A stretch of 57,402 nucleotides of DNA from Oscillatoriales cyanobacterium PMM_0008. Lineage in GTDB: Bacteria > Cyanobacteriota > Cyanobacteriia > Cyanobacteriales > Aerosakkonemataceae. The stretch is taken from the NCBI GenBank assembly GCA_949128025.1, contig CASBRD010000229.1, forward strand, positions 1-57,402, in the 5' to 3' direction. Of the stretch, positions 2,836 through 54,557 are shown one piece after another. The notes beneath the pieces were generated by a model that was not told the DNA's origin, made no database searches, and saw only the letters and a list, made by a program, of their open reading frames with translations. Made by a program: the position numbers and the translations under genes. Each line of letters opens with the position of its first letter. Position 1 is the stretch's first letter.

Positions 2836-3126
2836 TCAGGAGTTGTATAATCTAGCTCTTTCAACCGCGTGCCACGTCGCGGCGTCAACATCATAAGGTA
2901 GAATCGGAATAGTAAGACGAATTATCTGATTCAAATACCTTTCTAAAAATCTCCGTTTCTTAGAATTTGGAAGGCGTTCGCACCCAAAAACAAGTTCCTG
3001 CCACACAGTAGTTGAGGTAGCAATTTCTCCTTCGTGTTGTTGTAGCTTTGCTATAACATTTGGGTGTGGACGTTGACGGGTTGCTTCCGAGAGAATGTTA
3101 GTATCCAGTAAAAAGCGCAAACTCAT
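2836..3126 (-). pseudogene. VapC-like PIN toxin, C-terminally truncated
   Basis: The 96-residue frame begins MSLRFLLDTNILSEATRQ and contains the TTVWQELVFG motif, both typical of VapC-type PIN ribonucleases. Complete members are about 130-140 residues and carry DGQIAAIA and VTRN-DF type motifs at the C-terminus, which supply acidic metal ligands. Here the frame stops after RARLYNS. A shifted frame continues with TTPEDGILGGI, which resembles the missing segment, so a frameshift or local deletion is likely. Its ATG overlaps the stop of the antitoxin gene by four bases (ATGA), showing the pair was once a functional operon. Confidence 0.7.
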
Positions 3127-3442: not shown

Positions 3443-3865
3443 CTAATTTTCGGGAAAATACTGATTCAGAAAATCCCTAGCTGTCACAATAGCAATCCCC
3501 TCATATTCCTGTAATACTAATAAATCGCGATCGCCCGTAACAATCAGATCGACATGAGCCGCGATCGCGGTAGCTAAAATCATATTGTCATTCCGATCGC
3601 GTAAATCAGGTACGTTGATAGCTGCAATAGGATAAACTTCCACTAATTCTCGTGTTCCACTCATTAAATATTCAACAGTAAAACCCAAAGATTGTAATTT
3701 ACCCCGGAGTTTCTGTTTGCTCAAAGTCGTTTCTAATTCTGCCAACATCGGTTCGGATGCACAAATTATGAGTTGACGATCTCTTGCCAATCTAAATAAA
3801 CGAGCGGGGATACCTCCCCACAGCCAACCAGATACAAAGAGATTAGTATCTATGATAACTCTCAT
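3443..3865 (-). CDS. PIN-domain toxin (COG1569 type)
   Basis: This is a complete 140-residue PIN protein. It has the first Asp in MRVIIDTNLFVSG, a central ASEPMLAELETTL motif, and the C-terminal acidic motifs DLRDRNDNMILATAI and VTGDRDLL. PIN toxins are Mg-dependent endoribonucleases that cut tRNA, rRNA or mRNA and are held inactive by a partner antitoxin. The partner lies two bases upstream on the same strand, so the two are co-transcribed. Among the TA genes at the left edge this is the only one with an intact toxin. Confidence 0.85.
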   Translation of the reverse strand: MRVIIDTNLFVSGWLWGGIPARLFRLARDRQLIICASEPMLAELETTLSKQKLRGKLQSLGFTVEYLMSGTRELVEVYPIAAINVPDLRDRNDNMILATAIAAHVDLIVTGDRDLLVLQEYEGIAIVTARDFLNQYFPEN

Positions 3866-3867
3866 TT

Positions 3868-4140
3868 TTAAGGCTCCGTTTGAGAACGTTTCTCGCGGCG
3901 CACCTCCCGAACAATTTCACAAATCTCCTCCGTTGTTAATTGATCGGGATCGGGATTAGCCGCTTCTACGCGCCGTTCCCATTCCTCCCAGTCAAAACCA
4001 CCTTTCACTTTCTCAAAAACAATCTTATCGGCTGTCACTATCACTTGATATCGATCCCCAGGCTTCAGTTGATTTTCAATCTCAGCCGGAATTTCTAATT
4101 TACCATCGGCACTCACACAAACAGTAATATCTGATTTCAT
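3868..4140 (-). CDS. SpoVT/AbrB-type antitoxin
   Basis: This 90-residue protein has an N-terminal swapped-hairpin AbrB region (TVCVSADGKLEIPAEIENQL, about residues 6-25, then KPGDRYQVIV). A charged helical tail follows, expected to occupy the toxin active site. It is the first gene of a two-gene operon with the PIN toxin downstream. Such antitoxins usually repress their own promoter, with the toxin as corepressor; that regulation is inferred from the family. Confidence 0.85.
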   Translation of the reverse strand: MKSDITVCVSADGKLEIPAEIENQLKPGDRYQVIVTADKIVFEKVKGGFDWEEWERRVEAANPDPDQLTTEEICEIVREVRREKRSQTEP

Positions 4141-5028: not shown

Positions 5029-8000
5029 TTATTCTCCTTTAGATAAAATCAAATTCAACACATTCAACTCATTGGAAGTCAATAAATATTTATCGGTATA
5101 AATCTTTTCTCTCATTTCTTCTAAACTGTAACTGCTAAAAACTACAAAGGGAAAATCTCGATATTTATAACCAATTGGCAATGTTTTATCGGCTGGATAA
5201 AGGTGATGGATATAGGTAGCGAGAATATCCCTAAATTGTTCATCTTCTGGTTCTTCTGGTTCATCGGCAAAATATTCACTCATCGCCTCACCGCTGATAA
5301 AGGTAAATAATGGTAACGCATAATATTGGTCGAGGCGTTGGTTATTCTGCTCTAAAAATTGGGTTCGATGGTTGTAATCACGAACTTTATCCACTAATTC
5401 TATAGCATTTTTAAGGGCCGATCGCAACCTGCTAGGATAATTATTACATTTGCTAATTCCCCACATTTTATCCAACAGTTCTTTGTTGGCGTGATTCGCA
5501 ATATCCATCAGACGCATTTCGTAAGTTTCTTCTAATCTTTGTTCGGCAATTGGTACGACTAATAAGCTACCATTAATCAGACCGGGTTCTATTTTACTGA
5601 AGTCTAGTAATTTATCAAAACTATCGGCAATTAACTGAGAAAATTTGCTGTTGAAAACTTCTCGTAATTTCAAATAGGAATAACTTTCAGAAACCCGGTT
5701 TCCTGAATTTAACACAAACTCAGCGCGACTTAGGAGTTGTTCTAAACTTATATAAACTTCTTTTAAGAGTTTATGACTAGGACGCCTGCGGTGTTCGTTT
5801 TTGAGGTCTTTAATTAGGTTAGCCATTTGTCCGCTAAATGTCTGACCCGCCGCCGATACGGATTTTCCTCCGATGGGAATCATCAAGAATTTTTCCCTAC
5901 CTAGTTGTCCATATCCCTTAATTCTTGTCATAACACAAGTTTTGACAATTAGCAAGATATTTAATAAATTGATCGTACTTTCTCGCAATGACAGTTCTTT
6001 GTCATCGGCGTAATAAATAGCGCGATCGCTCAAATAAAAAATCAGTTCTTTTTCCTTATCATCCAGTGTTTTTTCTTCTCCATTTTCGATATATTGACCG
6101 CGACCTCTGTAAATAACCTGTATTATTTCCATCAGGTTACTTTCCACCCGAAATCGAGGAATTTCTACTAAAATATGCTTCGCTTTGGGAAACGATAAAC
6201 CGCGACTCGCAGAGGAAGTCATAAATATAACTTTCACTTTATTTTTGTATTGATGTATTTCTGACTTATCTCGATCGGAAAGGTTGGCGTGTATTTCTAG
6301 ATAATCCTTTTTCTCATCAAATTCTCCCCGCTGCTTTTTAATTCTTTCAATTAATTCTTGCAATTTCCGCTTATCTTGAATATATACTAGAATTTGACCT
6401 GCATCTGGTTGTTTCCAGAGAGTGTTGATATCTTGAACAATTTGCGTTTGGACAGTCTTTTTTAGGTTATCTTTTTTCTCCGCAAAAGTATCTTCATCAA
6501 ACTTTACCGACTCGATAAATACCTTATATGTAATAGTTAGACTGCTTGCTGGATAAGAGTTAGCGTTGATAATAATTGCTGGCGATCGCTTAAACTCAAA
6601 TTCCTGTGATGAAAGTGGATCATCTGCTTGGGAAGATGCACGCCTAAAGAATATTTTATCTGGTTCTGGTGATATTTCAGATAAATGTTGCTTGATCACA
6701 TCTGGCGCGACGATCGAAGCATCTGCTACAATAACTTTAGTGTTAAAACCGTGTTGCAAATCGGTTAATTTATAACGATTCAAAATCGTACTTATTCCAT
6801 TTAAAAACTCTACGCCGCTATCATCGCCAGTTATTTCATCTATCATAATGAATAAATGCTTGATGCGGGTCGATATTTTGATCATCTCAGCAGGAATAAC
6901 CTTACCATCGCGCTTGTTATAAGCACTTTTGAAGATATTCTCAAAATGCTCTAAGGTGTTTGCACCGTGTTCAGTCTTTTTTAAAGATTGGATACAAGCT
7001 GTCGCGACAATATTATTGGATATTTCGTATTTTATCGTTGTATATATTGCTTCGCAAAGACTAGATAAAACTCCTTTACTGCGGCGATTTGTAGGTTCAA
7101 TTTCATCTTCAGTTCTTCTGTTAAGTGCTTGCTGTCGCGATGCTTGGCGTTGAATTTCCTGCGCGGGGTCAAGAAAAATAACTGGATTTTCGATAAAATC
7201 ACCATGATGTTTTTGGGAGTGGTAATTGACGACAGTAGAACGAAAGTTATCTTTGATAATTTCCGCGTTAGTGTTGATACAAAATAGGCGACTATCAGTT
7301 AACTGTCCTGTTTCTGAGTCTGTGAATTTCTCGATGATATCCAAATTGACTTGTTTGCGGGGACTGACGTAGAAAAAGAGAAAACCTTCGTTGATATGAG
7401 CTTTCAGAAAGTCTACGATCGCAGTAGTTTTGCCAATTCCAGGATTACCAGTTAAAAATAGATAAGTTTTGTCGGAATTGAGTACATCTTTAATCATTTC
7501 AGCGTGAGGTTCCCTTAGTTCTAATGTTGAACTGAAGTTATCGATTTTTTCGGTATGAGATATAATAGTTGTGGTGTCGCTAGGTATTTCTAATAGTTGC
7601 TTGACAAAAGTTTTCCCATTGTCGAAACTCCGACCTGCATTAAGTTGAATCAGATTTAAAACTTCCTTTCGCGCTAGATCGATCTCCTGTTCTTTTGGTT
7701 CATTCTTATAAATCTGCGAACAGGTAGTTAATACGTCTAAGTTTTCAGGACGGAGGGACATGGCGCTGATACCGCGATCGCTATATCCCACCACATTAAA
7801 CACCACCGACGATTGATTATTGAGAATACCAATTTCGCCTAAAAATTCATAAAAACTGCGAGCATAAGAACCAGCTTGAATTAATTTAGCACTTTCTTTA
7901 TCCTTCCGCTTAAAAGCAGTAAAATATCTAGTCAAATCCGCCGCAAAAGTAAAACTAAAATCATCAGTAGCGCCAGTATCTATCCGCAGCTTAGAAAAAA

Positions 8001-8655
8001 CGCTTTTTGAGCGTAAATAACTAATCTCGCGCATCAACAAACGCCGCTGATTCTGCATATCTTTATCTTCAAAATCTAAGAGGTCTTTCGCTGATTTAAC
8101 GGAAAATATCGATAAGTCTACGGCGAGAATCCTAAACTCTTGGCGATGTTGTAACAACATTAAAGTGTCTGCATATAAGAATTCTCCTCCTTTACCTAAA
8201 CCTGAATATTTGAGTATGTAGCGATCGATATCATCTTTTTTAAGAAGATCGAACTGAGACAATAACTCGACAAATTCTTGTTTTTGATCCCTAGTGTTAT
8301 TTCCGAAGCTGTTATTACCGCCAAAACTGCATTGGTAGTACAAAATTTCGATTGGCGATCGCGTACTGTCTTTCCATCCAGTAGATTTAATGTACTCCCC
8401 AAAGAAATTCAATCCAGACAGAAAACCCTTCTGCAATAAATACAAACACCACTTTTCAATTCTTTCGATATCTTTCTGACTGATTGTTCCGTCTTCACTC
8501 ACTATCCGCTTAAACATTTTGGCAAATTTCAAATGCTGCAAATCTCGCCGATATAAATTGCCAAAATTGTGCTTGAGTTGGTGCTGTTCGATATAAGTAA
8601 GAATCCCAATATTGAAACCAACCTCAAATAAACGACCCAAATTTTCTGCTATCAT
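5029..8655 (-). CDS. Large SF2-type helicase/ATPase of unknown system
   Basis: This 1208-residue protein carries a DEAD-like helicase core in its middle: Walker A GNPGIGKT (403-410), a nearby FFYVSPRKQ motif Ia region, Walker B IMIDE (603-607), VIVADAS (641-647), motif V TSSASRGLSF (813-822) and motif VI QVIYRGRGQ (846-854). The first about 400 residues contain no family I recognise; a stretch around 155-190 (GGEFLYADTLMLL, then RILAVDLSIF) has the hairpin-like layout of some nuclease folds but no clear catalytic lysine. A 350-residue C-terminal region is also unassigned. Residues 985-991 (GNRVSES) are encoded by a dispersed DNA repeat. The gene lies 144 bases downstream of the 1004-residue gene on the same strand, and the two probably act together, perhaps in defence. 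Confidence 0.75.
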   Translation of the reverse strand: MIAENLGRLFEVGFNIGILTYIEQHQLKHNFGNLYRRDLQHLKFAKMFKRIVSEDGTISQKDIERIEKWCLYLLQKGFLSGLNFFGEYIKSTGWKDSTRSPIEILYYQCSFGGNNSFGNNTRDQKQEFVELLSQFDLLKKDDIDRYILKYSGLGKGGEFLYADTLMLLQHRQEFRILAVDLSIFSVKSAKDLLDFEDKDMQNQRRLLMREISYLRSKSVFSKLRIDTGATDDFSFTFAADLTRYFTAFKRKDKESAKLIQAGSYARSFYEFLGEIGILNNQSSVVFNVVGYSDRGISAMSLRPENLDVLTTCSQIYKNEPKEQEIDLARKEVLNLIQLNAGRSFDNGKTFVKQLLEIPSDTTTIISHTEKIDNFSSTLELREPHAEMIKDVLNSDKTYLFLTGNPGIGKTTAIVDFLKAHINEGFLFFYVSPRKQVNLDIIEKFTDSETGQLTDSRLFCINTNAEIIKDNFRSTVVNYHSQKHHGDFIENPVIFLDPAQEIQRQASRQQALNRRTEDEIEPTNRRSKGVLSSLCEAIYTTIKYEISNNIVATACIQSLKKTEHGANTLEHFENIFKSAYNKRDGKVIPAEMIKISTRIKHLFIMIDEITGDDSGVEFLNGISTILNRYKLTDLQHGFNTKVIVADASIVAPDVIKQHLSEISPEPDKIFFRRASSQADDPLSSQEFEFKRSPAIIINANSYPASSLTITYKVFIESVKFDEDTFAEKKDNLKKTVQTQIVQDINTLWKQPDAGQILVYIQDKRKLQELIERIKKQRGEFDEKKDYLEIHANLSDRDKSEIHQYKNKVKVIFMTSSASRGLSFPKAKHILVEIPRFRVESNLMEIIQVIYRGRGQYIENGEEKTLDDKEKELIFYLSDRAIYYADDKELSLRESTINLLNILLIVKTCVMTRIKGYGQLGREKFLMIPIGGKSVSAAGQTFSGQMANLIKDLKNEHRRRPSHKLLKEVYISLEQLLSRAEFVLNSGNRVSESYSYLKLREVFNSKFSQLIADSFDKLLDFSKIEPGLINGSLLVVPIAEQRLEETYEMRLMDIANHANKELLDKMWGISKCNNYPSRLRSALKNAIELVDKVRDYNHRTQFLEQNNQRLDQYYALPLFTFISGEAMSEYFADEPEEPEDEQFRDILATYIHHLYPADKTLPIGYKYRDFPFVVFSSYSLEEMREKIYTDKYLLTSNELNVLNLILSKGE
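5689..5702. repeat. GAAACCCGGTTTC near-palindrome, copy inside helicase gene
   Basis: The motif AGAAACCCGGTTTC, found elsewhere in intergenic DNA (12824, 46701, and a split form at 48366), lies within the helicase reading frame. There it encodes part of SGNRVSES. Its presence in frame shows the repeat can enter coding DNA without breaking the protein. Confidence 0.75.
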
Positions 8656-8691
8656 TTTGCACTCCTGTTAGATCAAGTCTATTGTCTGATT

Positions 8692-8758
8692 GTAGGGGCG
8701 GGTTTTGTTGATAGATTGTCTGTTAAACAGAAGGGTGATCTGCTAAACCCGCCCCTAC
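8692..8758. repeat. Palindromic interspersed repeat, family R2, copy 1
   Basis: Fourteen-base inverted arms (GTAGGGGCGGGTTT at 8692-8705 and its complement at 8745-8758) enclose a 39-base centre. It fills the gap between the two large minus-strand genes, so it would be transcribed as a hairpin in their mRNA and could lower read-through. A second copy lies at 54470-54557. Confidence 0.8.
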
Positions 8759-8799
8759 CATGCAATACTAATGCTACCCTACCGGACACGATATTATAC

Positions 8800-11700
8800 C
8801 TATACGTTTAAAACTCTCCTAACTTCGGTCAAAAATGCCAACGAGTTAAAACCCACCTCTCCTCTGATATGGTTAAACACGGACAATTTACTAAATGATT
8901 CCTCACCCATAATATTCTCATAAGGATCGAGTTTTAAACTAATGTCGCTGGTTTTCTCGAATCGCGAAAAATGAAAAAGTGTCAGATATTGCAAAATGTC
9001 ATTTTTCAGGGTGCTATCATCGTCTATCAAAGCTGAGCGAATATATTTGTCATCCAAAATTCCGGGATAAATGTTCAACAGAGTCGAGTAGGAAATCACA
9101 CCATTGTAAAAGCGATCGTCCCCCTTACCTACACTAATCCCATTAAACAAATTGAAAAAAACTACCGCTTGCTGCGCGGAATCTTGCGCTACATTCAGCA
9201 ATTCGTTTGTGTCCTGAATATAAAAAGAAGTTGCTTTAGGATTTCCTGCTTTCCGTACATAGTATTTATCAAAAAATACCGGATAGATCTTGATGTCGTC
9301 GCGGTTTCCTTTCAACTCCTTTATTAATGCAGGCGACATAAAATATAGGCGATCGTCATCCTCACTTTGAGTTATATTCAGGTTACTCGTAAAAGGTGCT
9401 TGTGCAATATACAAAAAGTCTCGGTATCCCTGCTGATAAAGATTGTTCACCGTGTCTATGAGAATTGGCGGATCTTGATACAAACGTCGATTGCTATAGT
9501 TATCAGAAAAAGTTTTGATAATATGCAACCGAATAGCACCATCTGGTTGACGTGCGATCGCGATCGCTTCTCCTACCAAATTAGATATTCTACCTTGGCG
9601 GTTTCTGTTACCTGTTCTGGCGTCGCTTTCCAAACTGGAAACAATTATAATAGCTAGTTTATCCAGGTTTGGAGTATCTAAGTTATCGGTAAACGTAAAC
9701 TTTCTAGGTAATACCGAATACAAAGAACTCAGACCGTTCTTAACTTTCAAATGATTTGCACCTCGGACGCGGAAACCCTGAGAACTACACCGATGGTTTT
9801 CGTTCAACAAATGACACAATGCTTTAGAAAGATGCGCTATGAACTTTTCAGATGGTGCGGGATTTTGGTGGTCGCCTTCGTGCAATCTTACCATCGGAAC
9901 AAATAATCTTTTATTAGCAGCATCTAGCAATATTTTTAGGCAAATATACGCTAACAAAGAGATAGTAAAGCGATAAATAAAGCCTTGATTAGCATCAAAT
10001 CCCTTTGGATCTAAGCGTCGATTATTGTAGCGAAATAATACCAATTTATTATTTCCCATGAAATATTTTTGATACGAATTCATACAACTTTCGGGAACCC
10101 ACATTACTGGTAAAGCATTAACACCTCTGATATCATATTCCATCCTAAATTGTTGGCGTTCTTCTGTCGGAAAATAGCGGATGTCTTCAATAGTAATACT
10201 CGCAGGTAGCTGACAGACAGCATTTTCTTCGACGTGCGCTTCTCCAATAGAAATGTATCTCAAACATTCTTTGGGATTGCGTCCTACAACTTCTCTGAAA
10301 AAGATACCATTGAAAATTCTATTTTCGTCGTTTTCCAGAATACCTCTTTTTACACTAATCTGGATTGGATAAGTTCTGGTTGGCAAAATACTCTGGGTTT
10401 TAATAAATTCTCTCAGCAATTCCCTTAGTACTTTGATTTTATCTCGAACTTTGTATTCATTCAAGCCTCGTATAATAGCGTTTAAAAGCCTCTTTTTTAT
10501 TTCCTCGTTATTACCCTTTAAATCGGTTAATATTTTTTCAAAAGGGATGATAGGGTTATAATTTAGATCGTCATTAGGATTATAACCATCTACGTTGGGG
10601 TTATTGCAAGCAAATACAAAGAAGTACAAAAATGCGAGTTTTAATACTTTTGCTCCGAAGTTGGGATTTTTGGCAAGTTCCTGACGGTGTTCAGCACTTT
10701 CTGGATCGAGAAGATTGAGATTGTAGTCAAAAACTTCTCGACCGTCAAGTGCTTGTACTGGATTACCAAACTTCATTTTGAAACCGCAAATAAATTTGCG
10801 CTCTCCCTTGTTAGTGTTTGTACTTTCGCCCAAGTTACCTGTTACAATGGGAATGATCGGAAGAGAGTCTAATACTTCCGATCGCGAAAACACATCTTTG
10901 TAATTAATCTTCACTCCAGCATAGTTCACCTCATAATAATCATCCGCTTTGTCCTGGTTAATAAAATCTTCTATTAATCTGAGACGGCGAATCAAATCTT
11001 GCAGATAAATAAAACCAATGCTGTCTTTATTATCGATGTTATCTCTAAGATATTCCAAATATCTTATCTTTGCTTCTTTCTTCAATTTACCCAGTGTTTC
11101 CGTGTCTACAATTCGCTTTAGGCGGTTGAAGTCAGAATACTCGTCTTCTATCTTGTCTTGAACCGTATCGTGCAGTTCTTTTCTGTCAGATTCGCTGTCA
11201 AAAGTAACTCGGTCATCAATATGATTTTCCAATCCCTCTCTCAAATATTCGGGAAATCGATCGATCTCCCTTACTGTAATAGTCAGTTTGTGAAATTTGA
11301 GTAGGGAAGCACTACCGGGACGGCTGCTATCCAAACAAAGTTTTTGCTTCTGTAAATTAGAAGAAGAATTGTTAAAATTATAAGTGAACCCTAACTGAGT
11401 TGCATCTCCCTGGAAAGATTGCAAAGGTGTAATCAAACTGGTAACAAACTTCTCAATCGCTCCATTTTCTCCTAGACTAGACTGTAGTAGCTGTCTCAAA
11501 CAATCTCTTATTTCTCCAACCTTATTGGGAAAGCTGTCTCGGAATCCCGCCGTAAAATTAATGGTAGCAGAACGTACCCCCTGAGAGGATGATAGAGGAT
11601 TTTGAACTTGGGAAGTTGCGACCTGACTAGCTACGGTGTCAATATCAATCTGCAACCGTTGGCCATTTTCCGATAGGCGAAACGGCTGCTGATTCCTTAA

Positions 11701-11814
11701 GTTTTGTAAGAGCTTCTCCAGTAAATCGCTGTAGTCTACTGGGACTAGCTCGTTGTCACCCTGTTCTAAACTGTTAACCATGTAGTGTCTTTTGGCTGAT
11801 GTTATTTCATTCAA
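8800..11814 (-). CDS. 1004-residue protein of unknown family, partner of the large helicase
   Basis: I do not recognise this family. The N-terminal 300 residues are mainly helical and charged. A Cys/aromatic-rich helix lies at 391-405, and there are further segments with FREVVGRNPKECLRYIS (506-522) and FRYNNRRLDPKGFD (594-607). The last third shows alternating hydrophobic strands and helices: KLAIIIVSS (719-727), SNLVGEAIAIARQPDG (744-759), IRLHIIKTFS (761-770), a helix ILIDTVNNLYQQG (784-796), then YRDFLYIAQAP (797-807) and IKIYPVFFDK (841-850). That order is reminiscent of an RNase H/PIWI-like fold, but no DEDX-type catalytic set is evident. This is only a hypothesis. The gene is first in a two-gene unit with the SF2 helicase. 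The ATG at 11814 was used; ATG at 11781 (codon 12) is an alternative. Confidence 0.7.
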   Translation of the reverse strand: MNEITSAKRHYMVNSLEQGDNELVPVDYSDLLEKLLQNLRNQQPFRLSENGQRLQIDIDTVASQVATSQVQNPLSSSQGVRSATINFTAGFRDSFPNKVGEIRDCLRQLLQSSLGENGAIEKFVTSLITPLQSFQGDATQLGFTYNFNNSSSNLQKQKLCLDSSRPGSASLLKFHKLTITVREIDRFPEYLREGLENHIDDRVTFDSESDRKELHDTVQDKIEDEYSDFNRLKRIVDTETLGKLKKEAKIRYLEYLRDNIDNKDSIGFIYLQDLIRRLRLIEDFINQDKADDYYEVNYAGVKINYKDVFSRSEVLDSLPIIPIVTGNLGESTNTNKGERKFICGFKMKFGNPVQALDGREVFDYNLNLLDPESAEHRQELAKNPNFGAKVLKLAFLYFFVFACNNPNVDGYNPNDDLNYNPIIPFEKILTDLKGNNEEIKKRLLNAIIRGLNEYKVRDKIKVLRELLREFIKTQSILPTRTYPIQISVKRGILENDENRIFNGIFFREVVGRNPKECLRYISIGEAHVEENAVCQLPASITIEDIRYFPTEERQQFRMEYDIRGVNALPVMWVPESCMNSYQKYFMGNNKLVLFRYNNRRLDPKGFDANQGFIYRFTISLLAYICLKILLDAANKRLFVPMVRLHEGDHQNPAPSEKFIAHLSKALCHLLNENHRCSSQGFRVRGANHLKVKNGLSSLYSVLPRKFTFTDNLDTPNLDKLAIIIVSSLESDARTGNRNRQGRISNLVGEAIAIARQPDGAIRLHIIKTFSDNYSNRRLYQDPPILIDTVNNLYQQGYRDFLYIAQAPFTSNLNITQSEDDDRLYFMSPALIKELKGNRDDIKIYPVFFDKYYVRKAGNPKATSFYIQDTNELLNVAQDSAQQAVVFFNLFNGISVGKGDDRFYNGVISYSTLLNIYPGILDDKYIRSALIDDDSTLKNDILQYLTLFHFSRFEKTSDISLKLDPYENIMGEESFSKLSVFNHIRGEVGFNSLAFLTEVRRVLNV

Positions 11815-11945
11815 CCACTAGATATGAATTTTAGTCAAGCGATTTTAGATTATTTGTACAGAACCATAAGAAAGCGGAACGCAGGTCACGCTGCTGAATT
11901 AGCCTCTAGGTAGGTTCGGCAAATGAGCAATGACCCAAAAGGTAT

Positions 11946-12641
11946 TCACCCTAAGTTTTTCTTGACCCAATCTCGTAAAGCCTGCTCCGTATTTACACCG
12001 AAAATAGAGTGGGGACAATCTGTTTTTCCTCTGTTGTGTTCCGTAAATCTATGGCCTGTAACATTATCCGGCGATATCCCATATTCTACCATCAGCCATT
12101 TGTGGAGTGCGATCGTTGCCTCTTCTTGCTTTGGCGCTAGTCTTTCGCCAGCTTTGGCAATATGTTCGATGCCAATGGAATCGTTATTCTCTCCTGGTGC
12201 GTGCCACGCCTTGTCGGCATCTTCCACCATTTGATAAATAGTGCCGTTTTTATCGACAATGTAGTGTGCGGAAATCTGGGATTGAGAATTTTGATACCAA
12301 CTAATTGTGCTTGCTAAGTTAGCCACATTTGTGTAATGATTGATGATCCGCTTGATTCTTTTCCCGTTGCGGCTAGAAAAATTTGGCGAGGCGACCCATT
12401 TTACTTCAGGCTTAAGAGGTGCTGAAGTACTGGGTGCATTAGGGGCAAAGTCTCCTAGTTCATCAGTGGCAATGAGCGATGGTTTTGGTTTGTCTTTTGG
12501 GGCGAAGCTGAACTTATTCGCGACACTAGAATCGAGAATTTTTTGCAGTTGCGCTACCTGCATTTCGGTATCCCATTTTTGAATCGCTTTATCGCCATAC
12601 ATTAAAAATACAGTCCCATCTTGAAAAATTTCAAACCACAT
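11946..12641 (-). CDS. N-acetylmuramoyl-L-alanine amidase (Amidase_2/PGRP type)
   Basis: The C-terminal domain (about 85-231) has the zinc amidase signature. The likely metal ligands are His102 (IINHYT), His197 (TGHRF) and Cys209 (TDCP), with SIGIEHI and the HYIVDKNG motif between. These enzymes cut the amide bond between MurNAc and the stem peptide. The first 70 residues form a short unrelated region (MWFEIFQDGTVFLMYGD) and no signal peptide is visible, so the protein may act in the cytoplasm, be released by lysis, or be a prophage- or bacteriocin-like lysin. It is on the same strand as the large two-gene unit and 132 bases from it. Confidence 0.88.
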   Translation of the reverse strand: MWFEIFQDGTVFLMYGDKAIQKWDTEMQVAQLQKILDSSVANKFSFAPKDKPKPSLIATDELGDFAPNAPSTSAPLKPEVKWVASPNFSSRNGKRIKRIINHYTNVANLASTISWYQNSQSQISAHYIVDKNGTIYQMVEDADKAWHAPGENNDSIGIEHIAKAGERLAPKQEEATIALHKWLMVEYGISPDNVTGHRFTEHNRGKTDCPHSIFGVNTEQALRDWVKKNLG

Positions 12642-13019
12642 TTTATTTGCCTCTAAATCGAAGGAATCTTGACCACCTTTTAGGGTAATATAAAAATGTT
12701 ATTTGTTAAATGCGCTACTTACACTAAGTTGCATTTAACTGACTTGGGGACGTCCTTGACATCGGGACACGGCGAATCCCGGCAACACGCAATACTGCTA
12801 GGGTTTTGGATATTGGTAGGCCCAGAAACCGGGTTTCTTTTAGCTCAAGAAGAGCAGTATTGCGGCTACACGGTATTAGCAATACAGTACTTGCTCCATC
12901 CGATCGGGACAGAGTTTCTGAGCGATCGCAGATCTAACCTTAAAGCTTTTCTATCAGAAGTAGGAACCCGAAACCTGGGAATAGCTGTACCTTGACAATA
13001 AAGAGCTAGCAAGTGATTT
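12642..13019. other. Intergenic region with GAAACC repeat
   Basis: This is a 378-base gap between divergent genes. It contains AGAAACCGGGTTTCT at 12824-12838, a dispersed palindromic repeat, and a partial variant near 12962. A 100-codon frame here has no coding character. Promoters for both flanking genes probably lie here, but I cannot pinpoint them. Confidence 0.6.
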
Positions 13020-14477
13020 ATGCAGATTAATACTCCAGATTGGGTCAAACACGCTGTTTTCTACCAAATTTTTCCAGATCGGTTCGCCAAAAGCAAGCAG
13101 CCCCACAAGCGGCTGTTGAAGAATGCCTCGTGGGAAGCCTGGGACGATATGCCAACGCTGCAAGGCTACAAGGGCGGCGATTTGTGGGGTGTGATAGAAC
13201 AGCTGGATTACTTGCAGGATTTGGGGATTAACGCGATTTATTTTACCCCCATTTTTCAATCGGCTAGCAATCATCGTTACCACACTCACGATTATTACCT
13301 GGTCGATCCGATGTTGGGGGGAAATTCGGCTTTTAAAGAATTGCTAGATGCAGCCCACCAACGGAATATCAAGATTGTTCTGGATGGGGTGTTTAACCAC
13401 GCCAGTCGCGGCTTTTTCTTTTTCCACGACATCCTGGAAAATGGCCCCCATTCTCCCTGGTTGGATTGGTTTAAAGTTGAAGGTTGGCCGGTATCTCCTT
13501 ACAATGGTGAGTTCCCGGCTAATTATATCGGTTGGGGTGGAAATCGGGCGCTGCCAGAGTTTAACCACAAGAATCCCGAAGTGCGGGAATATATTATGGA
13601 GATTGCCGAATATTGGATTAAATTCGGCGTCGATGGTTGGCGCTTAGATGTGCCGTTTGAGATTAAAGCAGCTGGATTTTGGCAGGAGTTTCGCGATCGC
13701 GTCAAAGCTGTCAACCCCGAAGCCTACATCGTCGGCGAAGTCTGGTTAGATGCTCGCGAATGGCTGGATGGCACCCAATTTGATGGAGTGATGAATTACT
13801 TATTTGCCGCACCGACGATCGCATTTACAGCAGGCGATCGCGTAGACATTGAGCAAGTACAAGATCGTTCCTACCATCCCTACCCGCCCCTATTTGCCAA
13901 AGAGTACGGCGAAAAAATTACCCAAGTACTAGAATTATACCCCTGGGAAATTCAGCTTACCCAGCTTAATCTACTAGCCAGTCACGATACGGCGCGTTTA
14001 ATTTCTATTGCGGGAGGCGACAAAGCCAGTGTGGAATTGGCAACGTTGCTGCTATTAACTTATCCCGGTGCAAGCAGCATTTACTACGGCGATGAAGTTG
14101 GCTTACCGGGTAAGTTAGATCCAGACTCGCGTCGCGGCTTTCCTATGGAAGCCCACTGGGAACTTGATGTTCTAAAATATCACCAGAAACTGATAGGATT
14201 GCGTCACAAATACCCTGCTCTCAGAACGGGTTCCTACAACATTTTGTATGCTGAGGGAACGGTTTATGTGTTTGCTCGCGTTTTAGGATCTGAGGAATTA
14301 ATTGTTGCCGTTAACATCGGAACTGCACCCGCAAATGCCAGCTTTGAAGTAACCGCTCTGCAATCCTTACCTAGCCAAATGTTGTATGGTACTGGAGAAG
14401 TATCGTGGAACGATGAGGGAGAATCTAATCAACTAACATTGGATCTTCCGGCTCGGAGTGGCTGTATCTTAGGTTGA
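13020..14477 (+). CDS. GH13 alpha-amylase family glycosidase (neopullulanase/cyclomaltodextrinase-like)
   Basis: This 485-residue (beta/alpha)8 enzyme has the GH13 conserved regions: DGVFNH (122-127), GWRLDVP with the nucleophile Asp210, GEVW with acid/base Glu240, and SHDT with Asp323. It opens WVKHAVFYQIFPDRFAKS, the style of neopullulanases and cyclomaltodextrinases, but lacks their separate N-terminal starch-binding domain. It ends in a short beta-sandwich. No signal peptide is seen, so it probably acts on intracellular glycogen-derived maltodextrins. It is transcribed alone, upstream of a histidine kinase with a 240-base gap. Confidence 0.92.
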   Translation: MQINTPDWVKHAVFYQIFPDRFAKSKQPHKRLLKNASWEAWDDMPTLQGYKGGDLWGVIEQLDYLQDLGINAIYFTPIFQSASNHRYHTHDYYLVDPMLGGNSAFKELLDAAHQRNIKIVLDGVFNHASRGFFFFHDILENGPHSPWLDWFKVEGWPVSPYNGEFPANYIGWGGNRALPEFNHKNPEVREYIMEIAEYWIKFGVDGWRLDVPFEIKAAGFWQEFRDRVKAVNPEAYIVGEVWLDAREWLDGTQFDGVMNYLFAAPTIAFTAGDRVDIEQVQDRSYHPYPPLFAKEYGEKITQVLELYPWEIQLTQLNLLASHDTARLISIAGGDKASVELATLLLLTYPGASSIYYGDEVGLPGKLDPDSRRGFPMEAHWELDVLKYHQKLIGLRHKYPALRTGSYNILYAEGTVYVFARVLGSEELIVAVNIGTAPANASFEVTALQSLPSQMLYGTGEVSWNDEGESNQLTLDLPARSGCILG

Positions 14478-54469: not shown

Positions 54470-54557
54470 GTACGGGCGGGTTGAGCCCTTGTACTGAGCG
54501 AAGCCGAAGTACACACATCTGGTTACCAACAGAATATTTTACAAAACCCGCCCCTAC
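54470..54557. repeat. Palindromic interspersed repeat, family R2, copy 2
   Basis: GTACGGGCGGGTTG at 54470 and AAACCCGCCCCTAC ending at 54557 form the outer arms. Inside is a second inverted motif (TTGTACTGAGCGAAGCCGAAGTAC). It lies between the convergent vapC and CheA-like genes. Confidence 0.75.

Follow-up and report, generated by a model that had tools for sequence, protein, structure and literature searches.

Within a 57,402-nucleotide stretch of DNA from Oscillatoriales cyanobacterium PMM_0008 (contig CASBRD010000229.1; hereafter the window), two large genes that we call B and A lie on the same strand; B appears to encode a divergent Argonaute/PIWI protein, and A encodes a superfamily 2 (SF2) helicase. 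We read them as one unit that may carry out guide-directed plasmid control in the manner of DdmDE and ApsAB, using protein families for which we found no sequence link to those systems. Taking our analyses together, we put the probability of this reading at roughly 0.58; the DdmDE/ApsAB scheme is preferred because the pair appears to have the same make-up, an Argonaute-like protein together with a helicase-nuclease. An initial annotation of the window had already described two very large co-oriented genes forming one unit with an anti-phage or plasmid-control role. Regular pairing and purifying selection bear out the unit, such a role is still the best reading of it, and our analysis makes plasmid control the likeliest one.

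To sequence searches, B gives little to work with: Pfam and NCBIfam returned nothing above cut-off, PADLOC returned no match, and a profile of 55 B proteins found nothing among Protein Data Bank (PDB) sequences up to an E-value of 10. The Pfam Piwi model PF02171 had no match at E≤1 in the window B, 19 relatives, 5 type-2 B proteins, the Ktedonobacter B and 4 plasmid B proteins (two from Acinetobacter, one each from Acetobacter and Nostoc N6). The earlier statement that B belongs to no known family is not supported, because the predicted fold of B is that of an Argonaute/PIWI protein. Specifically, an AlphaFold model built from 55 homologues (mean predicted local distance difference test score (pLDDT) 85.4, predicted template modelling score (pTM) 0.81) had three Foldseek matches in the PDB at E≤0.001, all three of them Argonautes (RsAgo 5awh at 3.1e-5, MILI 9ij3, and 3dlb); the next rows were NurA-type nucleases at E 0.015 and weaker. 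In a VIA search, all 50 matches listed were Argonaute/PIWI proteins, one of them within SPARTA, with Z from 10.7 to 9.4; the best alignment comprised 348 residues at 4.4 Å, and many alignments covered model residues ~157 to 999. Secondary-structure assignment (DSSP), with boundaries that we set ourselves, places a MID-like stretch ahead of an RNase H/PIWI stretch. By its predicted fold B is an Argonaute/PIWI protein, with the MID and RNase H-fold PIWI domains both present in the model. We rejected the alternative of an unrelated enzyme, since every structural match listed at E≤0.001 or Z≥9.4 was an Argonaute.

We counted active-site residues of both proteins in an alignment of 16 deliberately diverse pairs. 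In the MID domain of B, Q679 and G680 are kept in all 16, and in 54/55 and 55/55 type-1 proteins; H948, E953, L962 and P964 are the other residues invariant in the 16. The columns that we took as the catalytic aspartates (726-727, 804-805 and 990-991) are free of acids in all 16 members, bar one Glu at 726 in Acetobacter; they were placed by eye from the alignment, through the numbering of human Ago2, and cover the aspartates of the DEDX tetrad. Judged from these columns, the catalytic residues of B appear to be lost, and the protein is probably non-cutting.

The second protein, A, is an SF2 helicase with two RecA-like domains, Walker A, DExx and motifs V and VI all present. Pfam Helicase_C matches it at 30.3 bits against a cut-off of 23.5, P-loop models match weakly, and PADLOC has no match. 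The initial annotation's description of a helicase core with unassigned flanks is confirmed, as no Pfam family covers the ~375 residues before the core or the ~280 after it. A model of residues 1-1200 (pLDDT 83.1, pTM 0.81) aligned in VIA with Prp2 (6fa5; Z 14.8, 341 residues at 4.5 Å), and K409, D606-E607, R818, Q846, Y849, R850 and R852 are kept in 16/16 of the diverse members.

Fold searches with the A model hardly probed its N- and C-terminal regions, and we describe the N-terminal region through its secondary structure and conserved residues. DSSP gives helix 60-91, strands 103-108, 164-170 and 173-182, helix 253-275 and strand 283-292, with extra helices between them. This alpha-beta-beta-beta-alpha-beta order is that of the PD-(D/E)XK core. 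D163 opens the second strand, D/E180 and S182 close the third, and K253, K257, Q260 and Y264 lie in the helix; each of these seven positions is kept in 16/16 members, E11 in 15/16 and E87 in 14/16. The arrangement QxxxY is a mark of RecB/Cas4-type nucleases. On conservation and model, residues 1-345 of A are likely to be a domain of PD-(D/E)XK type, although its activity is uncertain.

The co-occurrence search proposed as a check by the initial annotation came out in favour of a unit. B was found in 42/386 genomes of the phylum and A in 53/386, well above what chance would give, and all 42 genomes with B also carry A, although some copies are broken, split or on another contig; the remaining 11 genomes with A hold a distant A or remnants. 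A weak B match in a 43rd listed genome (G355) was discarded, being by sequence an unrelated protein. From the 234 relatives of A that a wider scan brought up we kept the best 80, referred to here as named loci; nearly all are cyanobacterial and one is from Ktedonobacter robiniae. Seven of the 80 were set aside for a contig end within 1.5 kb of A and no B, and in 71 of the other 73 B lies upstream on the same strand. The B-A distance is at most 400 bp in 56 of these 73, 401-1300 bp in 10 and greater in 5, with 2 lacking B; three loci (L112, L115 and L177; L and G numbers are our labels for loci and genomes) end as early but were counted since B was seen, a slight bias. With 5 duplicate genomes included, 117 loci have either room for B or B itself, 114 of them have a same-strand B upstream, and the gap falls between -120 and 400 bp in 92, where its median is 14.5 bp. 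Relatives come from Cyanobacteria, Ktedonobacter and Proteobacteria. All nine type-2 A genes fetched have a same-strand open reading frame (ORF) upstream, of 1055-1070 residues in eight cases and 344 in L067. The type-1 B profile matches seven of these nine ORFs, and when the eight long ones are combined into a profile, it aligns with type 1 over the whole length at 98.6% probability.

Plasmids carry the pair as well. A was found in 11 plasmid records, comprising six cyanobacterial pairs, a partial A from Stanieria and distant pairs from Cupriavidus, Acinetobacter (two) and Acetobacter; all six cyanobacterial plasmids with the pair are typed as conjugative. Combined profiles matched the Cupriavidus, Acinetobacter and Acetobacter plasmid pairs at 3.5e-273 to 5.7e-128 for A and 9.8e-116 to 1.5e-28 for B. 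The two genes also share a history: with the 5 duplicate genomes dropped and loci without full-length A or B left out, the distances in the A tree correlate with those in the B tree, with r 0.993 for 99 loci and 0.925 for the 87 of type 1, values reached in 0/999 permutations. The ratio of nonsynonymous to synonymous substitution rates (dN/dS) is 0.12-0.30, as measured on 13 close pairs of A and 12 of B (the B pair of L116 and L138 was dropped, because diverged copies were compared and no value was obtained). Both genes are under purifying selection.

In DdmDE, known from Vibrio cholerae and others, the Argonaute DdmE is inactive but DNA-guided, and it brings DdmD, a helicase-nuclease under autoinhibition, to plasmids (PMC12409362, PMC12904381; one of the two gives the same scheme with the two protein names exchanged). 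In ApsAB of E. coli ST38, an antiplasmid pair related to DdmDE that in its authors' tests affected plasmids but none of eight phages, ApsB bears the MID motif Y[X]3K[X]nQG[X]nK, with K413 needed for activity (PMC11096173). The initial annotation held that no named two-gene system fits, listing Hachiman, Gabija, Dnd and BREX. That stands insofar as PADLOC matched neither the window pair, one type-2 pair, one Acinetobacter pair, the Acetobacter pair nor the Nostoc N6 B, but DdmDE and ApsAB, which it did not name, resemble our pair in make-up. DdmDE likewise consists of two adjacent genes, for an Argonaute-like protein (reported to be catalytically inactive, as B appears to be) and an SF2 helicase with a PD-(D/E)XK superfamily domain, which has a putative counterpart in A; ApsAB likewise combines a helicase/nuclease with an Argonaute-like protein, and the MID motifs of ApsB and B share QG.

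The differences are nevertheless several. DdmD has its helicase N-terminal and its nuclease C-terminal, whereas the nuclease-like region of A is N-terminal, with Ser for Lys. Judged on residue conservation, A has no C-terminal set of conserved D/E/K residues; of the acidic, basic and polar residues beyond position 930, Y1165 and N1198 are the only ones kept in at least 15 of the 16 members. The nuclease of ApsA, with canonical D1420..DVK1435, is also C-terminal, and its helicase motifs differ from those of A and are spaced at 314, 291 and 317 residues, against ~203, 38 and 202 in A (motif III being our choice). The Argonaute-like gene lies downstream of apsA, whereas here B comes first; the PIWI RNase H fold reportedly is not conserved in ApsB but is present in the B model; and Y[X]3K is absent from type-1 B proteins (0/55). 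Since the pair departs from them in the order of its genes, in where the nuclease lies, in how the helicase motifs are spaced and in Y[X]3K, we do not file it as DdmDE or ApsAB, a separation drawn from the published descriptions of those systems and not from direct sequence comparison.

It is also conceivable, though on balance unlikely, that the pair is an outlier within the ApsAB/DdmDE family as already published, which would be compatible with plasmid control. ApsAB-like systems have been reported from some cyanobacteria (PMC11096173), and earlier inclusion of the pair among them is the main threat to its novelty. The shared make-up, QG in the MID domain and a Y...K in three proteobacterial members point the same way. 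Besides the differences above, PADLOC and PDB sequence searches named no DdmD-, DdmE-, ApsA- or ApsB-type protein, the presence of these in the libraries being unverified. None of the four is among the matches listed (best 50 rows) in the fold searches with A and B, which carries no weight either way. A literature search found no description of the B-A pair, with preprints, most subscription papers and the ApsAB supplementary tables outside its reach.

Two other groups of PIWI proteins invite comparison. The pPIWI-RE triad, consisting of a restriction endonuclease (REase), a DinG helicase and pPIWI-RE (PMC3702460), likewise encodes a PIWI protein, a helicase and a restriction-like domain together, and sizes are near those of cyanobacterial triads. 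Our pair, in contrast, has two genes, PIWI first and then a helicase not shown to be DinG-like, and A has no conserved iron-sulphur cysteines: in residues 378-929, only column 534 has Cys in at least 25 of 49 sequences. None of the scanned B proteins matched PF13032 (RNaseH_pPIWI_RE) at E≤1, and the same model finds 6/194 genomes of the phylum. Pfam, gene order and cysteines thus reject the pair as a pPIWI-RE system. Profile-profile comparisons of B with pPIWI-RE and prokaryotic Argonautes (pAgos), and of A with the triad helicase and REase, were uninformative, as the positive control of pPIWI-RE against pAgo, two groups published as related, also failed. Separately, four loci in cyanobacterial genomes (L207, L208, L209 and L211) hold ORFs sized and ordered like REase-helicase-pPIWI-RE triads, and the L208 REase matches pPIWI_RE_REase. 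The inactive long-B pAgos (PMC6299218) resemble our pair in a PIWI domain apparently lacking the DEDX tetrad and in helicase or PD-(D/E)XK neighbours; they differ in that B has no Pfam Piwi match and type-1 B no recognisable YK motif.

In the mechanism that we propose, B would be an Argonaute/PIWI protein without catalytic activity, loaded with a short nucleic-acid guide. Guided B would recognise foreign DNA, most likely a plasmid, and recruit A, which would load on the opened DNA, translocate as an SF2 helicase and either cut through its N-terminal PD-(D/E)XK-like domain or hand the DNA to host nucleases. A broader proposal, which we offer tentatively, is that the pair represents a further prokaryotic PIWI lineage, apart from classical pAgos, pPIWI-RE, DdmE and ApsB, found solely in company with its own helicase, which bears an N-terminal nuclease whose catalytic lysine has been relocated (K253 or K257). 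In filamentous cyanobacteria it would be a resident, guide-directed guard against plasmids and other mobile elements that was captured at stable chromosomal sites, with the plasmid, type-2 and proteobacterial relatives still mobile. If the pair does control plasmids, the systems in which an inactive Argonaute works with a helicase-nuclease against plasmids would come to include a separate pair widespread in filamentous cyanobacteria, including relatives of Nostoc, Anabaena, Arthrospira and Trichodesmium, genera used in research and culture; barriers to plasmids and transformation in these organisms would then have one explanation. A PIWI lineage invisible to the profile libraries used would also be added, and the pair would provide natural variants (a Ser-substituted nuclease, a degenerate guide pocket, a housekeeping location) for studying target choice and host avoidance.

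Several observations, from the active sites to the genomic setting, weigh against guide-directed plasmid control by this pair. The Y...K of the guide-binding motif, sought in the 640-682 stretch of B, occurs in none of the 55 type-1 proteins and in 3/16 diverse members, all three proteobacterial. An alternative active site may exist in the PIWI region of B, because E953 (16/16), D849 (15/16) and D731 (13/16, Asn in 3) are conserved acids. A may have no cutting activity, because Ser182 replaces the usual PD-(D/E)XK Lys in 16/16 members and the N-terminal region had no nuclease match in Pfam or PDB sequence searches. Two loci, L151 and L167, have a full-length A and no B upstream. Agreement between the A and B trees is strong but incomplete, because 39 well-supported splits are identical out of 73 for A and 71 for B. 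Scans of phage and viral collections with the single window B and the A alignment found no relative; the B scan is a weak one, the same query having missed relatives that exist in the first genome collection.

The setting is on the same side of the balance, since 34/80 named loci lie at one of two housekeeping sites. In 16, all of them in Nostocales-type genera, purQ is upstream, accompanied in 15 by purS and a Fur-family gene and followed downstream in 7 by trpE and psaD. In 18 (Microcoleus, Tychonema, Arthrospira and their relatives), pheT is upstream together with a YciI-like gene, and a peroxiredoxin gene lies downstream in 14; in one of our loci (L139) the YciI-like gene ends 4 bp before the B start. 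The two sites are never combined in one named locus, many other loci are cut by contig ends, and one example of each neighbouring gene was confirmed by Pfam. The initial annotation's picture of a neighbourhood rich in defence and toxin-antitoxin genes is partly accurate for the window, which has three PIN ORFs and a STAND-type nucleoside triphosphatase (NTPase), but it does not hold in general. By contrast, all five of 13 type-2 or proteobacterial loci checked (L064, L065, L181, L182 and L183) have at least one neighbour with a PADLOC match, to PDC-S37, PDC-M26A, mad3/mad8, IetA, HNH/PtuB or WYL models; ten proteins of our choosing were scanned there, three without a match. This contrast in defence setting is a lead without a control, because type-1 neighbours were scanned with PADLOC only for L073 and the window. 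At L073, a type-1 locus, a type IIG restriction-modification gene (10679-13843) lies between B and A.

These sites raise the possibility, distinctly less likely, of a resident chromosome-maintenance pair acting in replication finishing, chromosome separation or R-loop resolution in filamentous cyanobacteria, as has been suggested for some Argonautes and PsPIWI-RE, with defence secondary. The conserved sites, the long co-inheritance of A and B and the low dN/dS are what such a role would lead one to expect; in addition, deletion of PsPIWI-RE alters cell division (PMC10991935), and cyanobacterial Argonautes reportedly help division under topoisomerase inhibitors in E. coli. The spread of the pair is patchy, however, and plasmid copies and the defence-type neighbours of the five loci above do not fit well. 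Moreover, eight family-f6 genomes chosen for lacking B have purS-purQ without the pair, with trpE-psaD nearby in two, so the site does not need the pair, which appears to come and go from an otherwise stable place. One of the eight (G064) has a type-2 pair elsewhere; a ninth B-lacking genome (G103) had no purQ match. The initial annotation had named independent occurrence of the two genes in housekeeping contexts as the outcome that would count against a defence unit: the contexts are there, but independence is rare (A without B in 2/73 loci). Improbable is an RNA-directed pair, in which B with its guide would tag foreign transcripts and A would act on RNA by remodelling or degrading it, since although the closest structural helicases of A among the matches listed include the RNA helicases Prp2, RIG-I, Brr2 and HrpA, the same lists include the DNA helicases and translocases WRN, Snf2h, FANCM, RECQL5 and UvrB within 1 Z unit or at similar E-values, a shared fold says nothing on substrate, and the published analogues DdmDE and ApsAB target plasmid DNA.

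The features of the locus itself are given in Table 1.

Table 1. Features of the B-A locus in window coordinates
Feature	Position	Strand	Description
Gene B	8800-11814	(-)	1004 residues from TTG; probably 993 residues from ATG at 11781; divergent Argonaute/PIWI-superfamily protein by predicted fold
Gene A	5029-8655	(-)	1208 residues, ATG; SF2 helicase
B MID (guide 5'-end) domain	9691-9906	(-)	residues ~637-708; from DSSP order, boundaries set by us
B RNase H-fold PIWI domain	8803-9672	(-)	residues ~715-1004; usual catalytic positions non-acidic, mapped by eye
A PD-(D/E)XK-like region (putative)	7621-8655	(-)	residues 1-345; E11, E87, D163, D/E180, S182, K253, K257, Q260, Y264
A SF2 helicase core	5878-7524	(-)	residues ~378-926; GNPGIGKTT 403-411, DEITGD 606-611, SRGLSFP 817-823, QVIYRGRG 846-853
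Dispersed palindromic repeat, like a miniature inverted-repeat transposable element	8689-8761	no strand	widens B-A spacer

In the ORF list of the window B lies upstream of A, with a spacer of 144 bp. The B protein probably begins at the ATG (residue 12) and not at the TTG, because residues 1-20 of the model have pLDDT below 50 and the first residue of 54 relatives, in window numbering, falls at 11-13 in 29, at 6-10 in 13 and at 1 in 12. The repeat in the spacer is outside the pair's mechanism; its 14-base half-site GTAGGGGCGGGTTT has 68 + 69 exact copies genome-wide (137), against 0 + 0 for the reversed control, and recurs in the window at 54544-54557. As a non-coding guide source beside the pair, the window offered no Rfam match or tRNA, and at L139 the YciI-like gene leaves 4 bp before B. 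Its three ORFs with toxin-like PIN-domain matches (1136-1639, 2836-3126 and 3443-3865) lie within 3 kb, the last immediately downstream of a small ORF (3868-4140) that resembles an antitoxin and has no Pfam match, and the NTPase gene is at 1338-2696.

Genes of the Uma2 family (PF05685) of putative restriction endonucleases are common in cyanobacteria. One is near the pair in 18 loci (for example L127, 5951-6523), upstream on the opposite strand in 17; Uma2 is the one nuclease family among the 14 largest neighbour clusters. At L073 a PIN-like ORF, recognised by eye (8173-8592), is also inserted between B and A. The unit is tandemly duplicated in L116 (511-10683) and L138 (6083-15794), giving B-A-B-A and B-A-B, so that a second B lies downstream of A in both. 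In L072 (4787-8137), a 1116-residue ORF runs from the start of B to about its residue 600 and continues in A from around residue 700, the product to be expected of an internal deletion. Finally, in an Okeania metagenome-assembled genome (L133, 5786-7295), the 5' end of A is repeated three times, ~662 bp apart, as either a true duplication or an assembly artefact.

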